48,597 bases of DNA, from NCBI GenBank assembly GCA_025355855.1, contig JANXYU010000034.1, positions 1 to 48,597 of the forward strand, in the 5' to 3' direction. Origin of the DNA: Actinomycetota bacterium (GTDB lineage Bacteria > Actinomycetota > JAHEXW01). A program made the position numbers and the translations under genes. How positions within the stretch are numbered: the first letter of the stretch is position 1; each line of letters starts with the position of its first letter. The notes under the pieces were generated by a model, which saw only the letters and a program-made list of their open reading frames with translations, did no database searches and was not told the origin of the DNA. Below, in pieces: positions 61 to 38,717 of the stretch.

Positions 61-66
61 TATAAT
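61..66 (+). promoter_or_regulatory. Probable -10 box of hgcA, leaderless start
   Basis: A perfect TATAAT lies 7 nt before the ATG at 74, so the predicted transcription start falls on or next to the A of the start codon. No Shine-Dalgarno precedes the ATG, which fits a leaderless mRNA, common in Actinobacteria. No convincing -35 box is seen. The element supports ATG 74 as the hgcA start and therefore reading through the TGA at 107. Confidence 0.6.
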
Positions 67-73
67 ATAAATC

Positions 74-1177
74 ATGGTTGATACACTTAACACGACCGAA
101 CTCTGCTGAGGCCCTCCCGTTACGCCGGCAGGCGAACGGCAGGCGCCCGGTCGGGACCAGTCATTTGTTATCGATAATATTGAAACGGCGGCGGGCCCGG
201 TCCCAACAGTCGCGACTCGTTTAAACCTTGCCGACCGCCTGGGACACTACCGCGTTCGCTGGGGGATTGGCCGCGACCACTATAAGGTCGACCCTGGTTT
301 GTACGCTGTCGGAAACCCGACGGCTGAATCTCCCGTACTGGTGACCGCCAACTATAAACTCACCTTCGACGTGGTGCGATCGCGGCTGGACGGCCTGGAC
401 GCCTGGCTCATGGTTCTGGATACGCGAGGCATCAACGTCTGGTGCGCGGCGGGTAAAAGGACGTTCTCCACGGAAGAGGTAATCGGGCGGATCGAGTTCG
501 ACCGTTTAGCGGATGTCGTTTTCCACCGGCGGCTGATCCTGCCGCAGCTGGGCGCGCCCGGCGTGTCAGCGCACGAGGTCAAGAAGGCAACCGGCTTCAC
601 GGTCAAATACGGGCCGGTTAGAGCGACGGACATCCCGGCGTACCTGGCCGCCGGCCTGCAGACGACTCCGGAAATGCGCGAGGTAACTTTCAGCCTGCGG
701 GAACGAGCGGCTTTGACTCCGGTTGAATTGTCCGGGGCTTGGAAATACATTCTGGCGGTCTTGGCCGCGTTTATCGTCTTCGGCCTTTTTACTACCCATC
801 CGCTGACAGCCGGCGGTTTCTTTAGAACTCTGTCCGAGGATCTGGCGCCGTTCGCAGCCGGCGTTATTGGGGGCGCCGTGTTAACGCCGCTCTTGCTGCC
901 GTGGTTGCCGCCCCGGATGTTCGCGGCCAAAGGCGCGATTATCGGAATTATCGTCGGGGCCGGGGTTGCCCTGCTTATACACCCAACCTTGATGGTAGGC
1001 CTGGCGGTAATCCTGGTCACGGTGGCTATTACTTCCTATATGGCCATGAACTTTACCGGCTCCACGCCGTTTACTTCTTTGTCCGGCGTCGAGCGCGAGA
1101 TGCGCCGTTGGATGCCTATCCAAGCCGGCGCGGCCGTGATCGCTCTGCTGGCCGTATTGTTCCGGGGGATTATCTGA
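74..1177 (+). CDS. hgcA: HgcA, corrinoid mercury-methylation protein, putative selenoprotein (in-frame TGA 107-109)
   Basis: HgcA is the membrane corrinoid protein that transfers a methyl group to Hg(II), working with the ferredoxin HgcB. With TGA at codon 12 read as selenocysteine the product is 367 aa. The cap-helix motif NVWCAAGK spans residues 121-128; Cys124 is the expected lower cobalt ligand. Other hallmarks are TANYKLTFD, HRRLILPQLGAPGV and YGPVRATDI. About five membrane helices follow (roughly 223-239, 257-276, 286-303, 305-323, 351-365), with the HgcA-typical SYMAMNFTGSTPFTSL at 321-336. The N-terminus reads MVDTLNTTELC, then TGA, then GPPVTPAGERQ. Between the TGA and TTG 299 there is no ATG, GTG or TTG in frame, although conserved sequence (ETAAGPVPTV, VRWGIGR) is encoded there. 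Starting at 299 would lose it. The true stop is TGA at 1175-1177, sharing one base with hgcB. Family assignment is nearly certain; Sec decoding is inferred. Sequencing error or a non-canonical start are the alternatives. Confidence 0.93.
117..139 (+). promoter_or_regulatory. Candidate SECIS hairpin in hgcA mRNA
   Basis: Starting 7 nt after the TGA at 107-109, CCG (117-119) can pair with CGG (137-139). A bulged T120, a T121-A136 pair and an A122/A135 mismatch follow, then CGCC (123-126) pairs with GGCG (131-134) around a GGCA loop (127-130). The guanines of the loop sit 18-19 nt after TGA. The E. coli fdhF SECIS likewise has a bulged U and a G-rich apical loop at about this distance. The folding was done by eye. 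Confidence 0.45.
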
Positions 1178-1461
1178 TGGAAACATTCAAATATATCGAG
1201 GGCGGCACGACGCTGTCACTGGACAAGAATAAATGCACGGGATGCGGCATGTGCCCGCGGGTCTGCCCGCACGCCGTGTTGGAAATGAAAGACAAGAAAG
1301 CCGAAATTGTCCGTCGGGACCGGTGTATGGAATGTGGGGCTTGCGCGATGAATTGCCCTGCCGACGCTCTGTCGGTCCGCCCCGGCGTCGGCTGTGCCAG
1401 CGCCGTTATCGCCAGCTGGTTTCCGTGGCGGAAGAATACCGCCCCGTCCTGCAATTGCTAA
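1177..1461 (+). CDS. hgcB: HgcB, 2[4Fe-4S] ferredoxin of mercury methylation
   Basis: HgcB is the electron donor thought to reduce the HgcA corrinoid and help deliver mercury. The 94-aa product has two 4Fe-4S motifs, Cys20/23/26/30 (CTGCGMCPRVCP) and Cys50/53/56/60 (CMECGACAMNCP). It also has the family-specific lone cysteine in PGVGC (Cys73) and a C-terminal cysteine pair (Cys92, Cys94; here C-N-C rather than adjacent). The start ATG overlaps the hgcA stop by one base, so the two are translationally coupled. The combination of neighbour, length, PGVGC and the tail cysteines separates it from generic ferredoxins. Confidence 0.95.
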   Translation: METFKYIEGGTTLSLDKNKCTGCGMCPRVCPHAVLEMKDKKAEIVRRDRCMECGACAMNCPADALSVRPGVGCASAVIASWFPWRKNTAPSCNC

Positions 1462-37341: not shown

Positions 37342-37990
37342 ACACCCGCCACAGATAATATAGTCCTACGGCAATCAACGCAACGCCGCTTACAATATCG
37401 ACGTATTTCTTAGCCGACTGCATCTTTTTCAACCAAACCGTCGCCGCCCCGGCCACCGTGCCCAGGAATATCAGTGGAACGCCGTGGCCAATGCCAAAAA
37501 TAAACGCCAGAACCCCGCCAAACACCAGCCTACCCTCGCGCAGCGCCACCGCCAGGACCGGCGTTAAGTAGGAAATCCCGCACGGCCCCATAACAAAAGC
37601 GCCGATGACCCCCAGAATAATCGCCCCGAGTATGCCTCTGCGTTTAGTGGGGCCGAGATTGCCGTTCATAAAGCGCGGCAGGGGCAAACGATATACGCCC
37701 AAAAAACTTAAGCCGATCGCAATCAATATTATTCCGGCGAGGAGCGAAATCAAATACTGTTGCGTCCGAAAGAAGCCGCTTACCAGAGATATCGCCGCGC
37801 CGAGCAATCCAAAAACAACCGCCATGCCGAGTACAAACGCGCTGGACAAGACGAATCCCTGGCTCTTAGGAGCGTCGCCTTCCGAGGTTTCGTAAGCGAC
37901 ATACGTAAGAACGATCGGAAACATCGCCCACATGCAGGGGCTTAGAACCCCCGAGACGATACCCCAGCCGAGAGCTGCCAAATACGCCAT
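37340..37990 (-). CDS. ccdA: CcdA-family thiol-disulfide transmembrane protein
   Basis: Membrane protein of 216 aa with six helices that carries reducing equivalents from cytosolic thioredoxin to extracytoplasmic thioredoxin-like proteins. The two redox cysteines are in SPCMWAMFP (helix 1) and GPCGISYLTP (helix 4), both standard for CcdA/short DsbD. The start overlaps the stop of the Sec-thioredoxin gene by one base, and that protein is its obvious partner. Confidence 0.92.
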   Translation of the reverse strand: MAYLAALGWGIVSGVLSPCMWAMFPIVLTYVAYETSEGDAPKSQGFVLSSAFVLGMAVVFGLLGAAISLVSGFFRTQQYLISLLAGIILIAIGLSFLGVYRLPLPRFMNGNLGPTKRRGILGAIILGVIGAFVMGPCGISYLTPVLAVALREGRLVFGGVLAFIFGIGHGVPLIFLGTVAGAATVWLKKMQSAKKYVDIVSGVALIAVGLYYLWRV

Positions 37991-38430
37991 TACTTCACCA
38001 GCGCTTGAATCTCCGCGACCAGCGCGTCCTTAGCGACTTGCCCCGTCCAGTTCTTTGCCTCGCTGCCTTTGTTGTCAAACAAAAAGGTCATTGGGACGTA
38101 TTGGACATTATATTTGGACGCGACCGGCTCTTCCGAAGCGTTATCAACGAAGACGACCACGAAATTCATCTTGGATTTGTACTGGGGTTTCAACTCATCG
38201 ACCAACTGGCCCATCGCGATGCAGGTCGGTCAGGTCGCGCTCCGCAGTAACAACAACGTGGGTTTACCGCTGGCCAACGCCTTGTCGATGACCGGCTGAG
38301 ACGAGCCGTCGGAACCCCTGCCCGTCGAGGTAGAAGTCTGTTGGCTAAGCCGCGGCACCACGATGATCGCGGCGATTATCAGCACGCCGATAACGACGGC
38401 CGGTTTCCAATAATTTTTCACTGTTCGCAT
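37990..38430 (-). CDS. Membrane-anchored thioredoxin-like selenoprotein (UxxC active site)
   Basis: With the TGA at 38232-38230 read as selenocysteine this is one frame of 146 aa: signal anchor (VVIGVLIIAAIIVV), Ser/Thr/Gly linker, strand KPTLLLLRSAT, then the active site U-P-T-C (Sec67, Cys70), helix IAMGQLVDELK, strand MNFVVVFVDN and the cis-Pro loop YVPMTFLFD. The TGA falls exactly on the first Cys of CxxC, the nucleophile, the classic Cys-to-Sec position. Splitting it at TGA would leave two fragments, neither with an active site. ATG 38430 is very close to AGGAGGG; GTG 38421 may be the true start. It overlaps arsR and ccdA. Presumably extracytoplasmic, recharged by CcdA. Confidence 0.88.
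38196..38221 (-). promoter_or_regulatory. Candidate SECIS hairpin of the thioredoxin gene
   Basis: On the minus strand CATCG (nt 9-13 after TGA) pairs with CGATG (nt 30-34). After a 2-nt G-T bulge on the 3' side, CGA pairs with TTG (one G-U), leaving the loop TGGGCCAG. A G-rich loop at about nt 18-20 fits bacterial SECIS rules, but the stem is less perfect than that at 37201-37216. Confidence 0.4.
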
Positions 38431-38717
38431 CCCTCCTGGTATCTGGACTGAAGTTCACTGTGAATCGTCGTGCAAAACCATTTGAGTTTCTCACCGCACG
38501 CCGAGTACAGAATGCTGTTTCCGGCGCGGCGGCAGTTCAACAAACCGATCAGACGAAGATGGCGAAGGTGGTGCGATGTCAAAGGCTGTGATAAACCGGT
38601 GCGGGTCGCGATATCGCCGACACTTAGTTCCCCTTCGCCCACTAAGAGCAGGAAAATGTTGAACCGGTTCTCGTCTGAAAGATTTTTGAAGACCGCCAGC
38701 AATTCATCTGTTTTCAT
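38418..38717 (-). CDS. ArsR/SmtB family transcriptional regulator
   Basis: Winged-helix repressor of 99 aa: MKTDELLAVFKNLSDENRFNIFLLL, recognition region ELSVGDIATRTGLSQPLTSHHLRHLRLIGLL, then a beta-wing. The ArsR-type ELCVCDL metal site of helix 3 is absent (GELSVGD); cysteines instead occur in NCRRAGN, SACGEK and WFCTT, plus GCEQ at the tail. The inducer could be metal, metalloid or redox. ATG 38717 sits exactly at the predicted transcription start (leaderless). It overlaps the thioredoxin gene by 13 nt and heads that operon. Confidence 0.9.
   Translation of the reverse strand: MKTDELLAVFKNLSDENRFNIFLLLVGEGELSVGDIATRTGLSQPLTSHHLRHLRLIGLLNCRRAGNSILYSACGEKLKWFCTTIHSELQSRYQEGCEQ

Follow-up and report, generated by a model that had tools for sequence, protein, structure and literature searches.

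Predicted selenocysteine in the mercury methylation protein HgcA of an Actinomycetota bacterium and further candidate selenoproteins of its genome

The window analysed here, a 48,597-nucleotide stretch of DNA from an Actinomycetota bacterium, was the entire contig C2 of a 35-contig, 1.34-Mb bin with 91% completeness, which places hgcA at a contig end. The hgcA gene was located at positions 74-1177 of the forward strand with ATG 74-76 as the start codon. An in-frame TGA (107-109) was found at codon 12, directly behind a TGC codon, and the frame downstream of it was uninterrupted up to the stop codon TGA 1175-1177. With codon 12 read as selenocysteine (Sec), the gene product had 367 amino acids and scored 440.9 bits (2.6e-132; cut-off 275) with the NCBIfam HgcA profile NF040863, with profile position 1 at residue 43. 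A TATAAT sequence (61-66, forward strand), a putative -10-like element, ended 7 bases ahead of ATG 74. This short distance and the lack of a Shine-Dalgarno sequence in between suggest a leaderless hgcA transcript. The coordinates agreed with the preliminary description of this locus, which had reported ATG 74 behind TATAAT followed by 11 codons, TGA and an open frame. The hgcB gene for the ferredoxin partner (1177-1461, forward strand; NF040864, 117.7 bits, cut-off 99) adjoined hgcA and was intact, and its product had the motif GVGC and the C-terminal end CNC.

The cap-helix motif N(V/I)WCAAGK was present in HgcA as INVWCAAGK, with Cys124 (TGA-read numbering) as the Co-facing Cys. The AlphaFold model showed five long C-terminal helices in residues 208-366, which correspond to the five-transmembrane-helix C-terminal domain of HgcA, and confidently modelled strands in residues 32-46, while the tail of residues 1-20 had a pLDDT below 50. 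The earliest in-frame ATG, GTG or TTG past TGA 107-109 was TTG 299. Starting at this codon would cost HgcA approximately 75 residues, including the conserved DQSFVI..T..GPVP.V sequence and the strands 32-38 and 41-46 (pLDDT of about 95). Alignments showed that homologues retain DQxFV...T.xG.VP.V, which is encoded between the TGA and TTG 299. The earlier observation that conserved HgcA sequence is encoded there ahead of any usual start codon was thus upheld by the NF040863 alignment, the homologue block and the modelled strands, and this stretch is coding, conserved and confidently folded HgcA.

The codons TGC-TGA (104-109, forward strand) would encode Cys11-Sec12, a CU motif. The TGA column held Cys in most homologues. 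About 49 HgcA genes spread over many phyla encoded Cys-Cys there, and 11 genes besides that of the window had TGA. The resulting 12 TGA-carrying genes comprised three from this phylum (window included) and nine from Desulfobacterota/'Deltaproteobacteria', the latter drawn from 80 GTDB loci. The sites within the phylum were ELC-TGA-GPPVTP in the window, APC-TGA-GPPDTP in genome G056 and KPR-TGA-GPPETA in genome G122, and the two phylum mates shared the pattern C/R-TGA-GGC-CCN-CCN. In the automatic alignment, gap placement shifted the U of some rows by a few columns; in a second alignment with U shown as C, the TGA rows shared one invariant Cys column. Cysteine at this column in homologues, as anticipated in the preliminary description, was therefore found. 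The window HgcA stood at only 55% to the nearest HgcA found, so that purifying selection right at the site was hard to gauge, and this was counted against the Sec reading. The HgcA tree placed the window sequence apart from G056 and G122, and on its supported branches the Sec label had to change five times or more, for which reason one vertical origin of Sec in HgcA was rejected. Judged from this tree, exchange between Cys and predicted Sec at the HgcA site has happened repeatedly, as is usual among selenoproteins.

Folding and stem scoring located a SECIS-like hairpin at 110-147 (forward strand) with the apical loop GGCA (127-130) 17 nt past the TGA. The stem consisted of 123-126/131-134 (CGCC/GGCG) and 117-121/135-139 (CCGUU/AACGG) with a bulged A122, in line with the bulged G-loop hairpin at SECIS distance that had been noted before. 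Hairpins were scored with a rule that required a perfect stem of at least 4 pairs, a loop of 3-7 nt with G among the first two loop bases, and a position 13-26 nt downstream of the codon, with a pass at a score of 12 or more. This score was reached by 12 of 12 TGA-carrying hgcA genes, by 5 of the 49 Cys-Cys genes and by 12% of shuffled sequences, and the evidence lies in the contrast between these groups and not in a p-value because the rule was formulated after the folds were seen and the scored rows are related. The window hgcA just reached the threshold, with the full hairpin adding five pairs across the bulged A. Both stem arms varied together among relatives (GGCUC/GAGCC, GGUUC/GAACC and GGCCC/GGGCC). 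The fold z value was -2.7 for 107-150 and -1.6 for wider cuts; the RNA fold by itself was only moderately unusual and was also counted against the Sec reading. A search of Rfam gave no match to a SECIS model.

The bin was scanned for in-frame TGA codons between coding stretches, with the four small contigs C5, C14, C25 and C35 (9.3 kb) reading as N. Two genes for formate dehydrogenase alpha subunits (FdhA; C30:129556-132450 and C20:9223-12678, both on the reverse strand), identified from motif and sequence, had TGA in the classic site (NNIDNCARL-U-HSPTVAGL and NNVEHQARI-U-HSSTVAGL). A glutaredoxin gene (C23:20927-21181, reverse strand; PF00462) had the site STPT-U-PYC. All three carried a Sec-type TGA with a SECIS-like hairpin; the FdhA hairpins scored 17 and 19 and the FdhA and glutaredoxin hairpins together spanned 15-19, a score of at least 15 being reached by 3% of ordinary TGA stops. 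In the window, a second predicted selenoprotein gene, for a membrane-anchored thioredoxin-like protein with a UPTC active site (37990-38454, reverse strand; PF00085, 3.4e-10), had TGA at 38232-38230 in the site RSAT-U-PTC and a hairpin score of 10. The standard code breaks this gene into two. Overall, TGA terminated 216 of the 845 long ORFs of the bin, and genome-wide reassignment of TGA was rejected for this reason.

Profile and tRNA searches of the 91%-complete bin found no SelA, SelB, SelD or tRNA-Sec. Sub-cut-off tRNA-Sec matches were ordinary tRNAs, and sub-cut-off SelB and SelD matches were partial, far under the cut-off and taken as translation GTPases and PurM-like proteins. Also missing from the bin were tRNA-Asn, tRNA-Ile, tRNA-Trp and all but one of the four tRNA-Ser, so the absence of sel genes from it means little. 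A selD-selA-selB cluster was found in a congener (genome G001, contig C13; L077:7487-11171), where it runs off a contig end, and the SelD of this congener has an in-frame TGA itself (GKSG-U-ASKLGPADL). With the three genes clustered in this way, a single missing stretch would take all three. DNA comparison gave no location for the congener sel region in the bin, and its proteins FdhE, HgdB-like, LysR, SelD and SelA had zero matches there. The preliminary description had held that absence of selA, selB, selC and selD from the genome would speak against Sec. The absence itself stood in the bin, but its reading as a refutation is unlikely to hold, as the other classic Sec genes of the bin and the congener cluster point to an assembly gap.

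Taken together, the Cys-Cys/Cys-Sec column, the hairpin in all TGA-carrying hgcA genes and the Sec-type TGA codons elsewhere in the genome argue that hgcA encodes a selenoprotein with TGA 107-109 as Sec, at a probability of about 0.93. SelB and tRNA-Sec would decode UGA codon 12 at the hairpin immediately downstream, and the product would carry Cys11-Sec12 on a flexible N-terminal tail ahead of the corrinoid domain, with Sec where most HgcA have the second residue of a Cys-Cys pair. The alternative that survives best, though it is very improbable, is that the TGA is a true stop and HgcA begins at a rare codon (ACG 122, ATC 173 or ATT 179) or at TTG 299. The lack of sel genes in the bin and the use of TGA as a stop in its ORFs would fit this alternative. 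However, TTG 299 comes after both DQSFVI (from residue 28) and the strands of residues 32-46, the ATC and ATT codons lie at or past these features, the C-TGA-GPP block and the hairpin are kept in other HgcA genes, and in-frame coding of CU-GPP would be unexpected in an untranslated 5' leader. Slightly less probable again is reading of UGA as Cys or another standard residue through a suppressor tRNA or near-cognate decoding, with the Sec machinery truly absent. This would agree with the bin lacking sel genes and with the missing tRNA-Trp, whose anticodon was hence not seen, but no tRNA with a UCA anticodon was found in the bin, SECIS-typical hairpins were present in FdhA, glutaredoxin and HgcA, and the congener has selA, selB and selD. 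A sequencing or assembly error or a recent nonsense mutation giving a pseudogene, conceivable for a gene at the contig end of a metagenome-assembled genome, is equally improbable given the same TGA in the same motif in independent genomes, the 355 codons intact past the TGA and the intact hgcB.

Two further candidate selenoproteins were found. The first was a lipoprotein of the EB_dh family (PF09459; L210:742-1809, that is bin C8:60742-61809, forward strand) with an in-frame TGA at C8:61297 in the site FWGW-U-SIPELYG and the hairpin CUCUAC-GGUC-GUGGAG 18 nt past the TGA. The congener gene showed the same TGA and hairpin at 85% identity, and the adjacent paralogue had Cys at the TGA column. This lipoprotein is likely an undescribed selenoprotein. 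The gene clusters with multihaem cytochromes. The second was a GAF/HD-GYP-like sensor with domains named from sequence (L229:8214-10652, that is bin C16:28214-30652, reverse strand), with the TGA at C16:28897 in the site FSGDPGL-U-DEEEVRLL. The TGA of this sensor (L229 and L256) was kept in the congener, and the stem of the hairpin CGACUCU-UGGA(U/G)-AGAGUCG was unchanged there though the intervening codons differ. No Cys was found at the TGA column in the paralogues checked, and the sensor is a possible undescribed selenoprotein. The words ethylbenzene, GAF and HD-GYP did not occur in the text of a 2026 review (PMC13188914), and these two genes may be a more novel result than the Sec-containing HgcA.

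Hg(II) favours thiolate and selenolate ligands, and the Cys-Cys or Cys-Sec pair sits in the modelled disordered tail, ahead of the corrinoid domain and the five C-terminal helices. The C-terminal Cys pair of HgcB matters for methylation (PMC11588087). From the ligand preference of Hg(II) and the HgcB pair, the tail pair would most likely serve either to capture Hg(II) and hand it over or to set the product free by thiol/selenol redox, two roles between which the present results do not distinguish. As a soft-metal or redox site, it could capture Hg(II) or release methylmercury and pass Hg(II) between the C-terminal cysteines of HgcB and the Co of HgcA. That the Cys-Sec pair is a mercury ligand is put forward tentatively, at somewhat below an even chance. 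A broader proposal, in which the tail pair would be a high-affinity Hg(II)/methylmercury shuttle with repeated exchange of Cys and Sec and the selenoproteome of the genus would be enlarged to include Sec-containing EB_dh-family and GAF/HD-GYP proteins, both missing from the published list, is a little more doubtful still. The Cys/Sec toggling of a conserved N-terminal pair in several lineages speaks for a directly testable soft-metal or redox role, and such a role, if true, would tie selenium supply to methylmercury formation. In addition, surveys can mis-annotate Sec-containing HgcA, as gene callers that stop at the TGA clip the N-terminus.

The preliminary description knew of no described Sec-containing HgcA, which did not hold, since this prediction was in print in 2023 according to a passage of the 2026 review (PMC13188914) and to PMC11588087. 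The passage has HgcA (NF040863; motif CU) among the predicted selenoproteins and HgcB (NF040864) with the motif GVGU, and refers to Haft & Gwadz 2023. PMC11588087 considers it possible that some homologues of hgcA and hgcB are selenoproteins. The literature searched gave no experimental demonstration of Sec in any HgcA, and the terms searched in the main text of PMC2398784, which appears to be the review's reference 61 for HgcA, gave no mention of HgcA. The window HgcA is thus not the first but a further, well-supported Sec-containing HgcA on a distant branch. Like the published ones, it has Cys-Sec ahead of the corrinoid domain; it differs from them in its separate branch and in the form C-U-G-P-P. 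While some published HgcB proteins have GVGU, the HgcB of this locus has Cys instead of Sec. Compared with the Cys-Cys HgcA of Desulfobacterota, the window HgcA showed the same N-terminal motif (CCGPPQGP in L096 and CCGPPPGP in L155) and the same spacing to NVWCAAGK (111 versus 109 residues). However, the Cys-Cys genes have TGC or TGT where the window hgcA has TGA, and most of them are without the SECIS-like hairpin that the window hgcA has.
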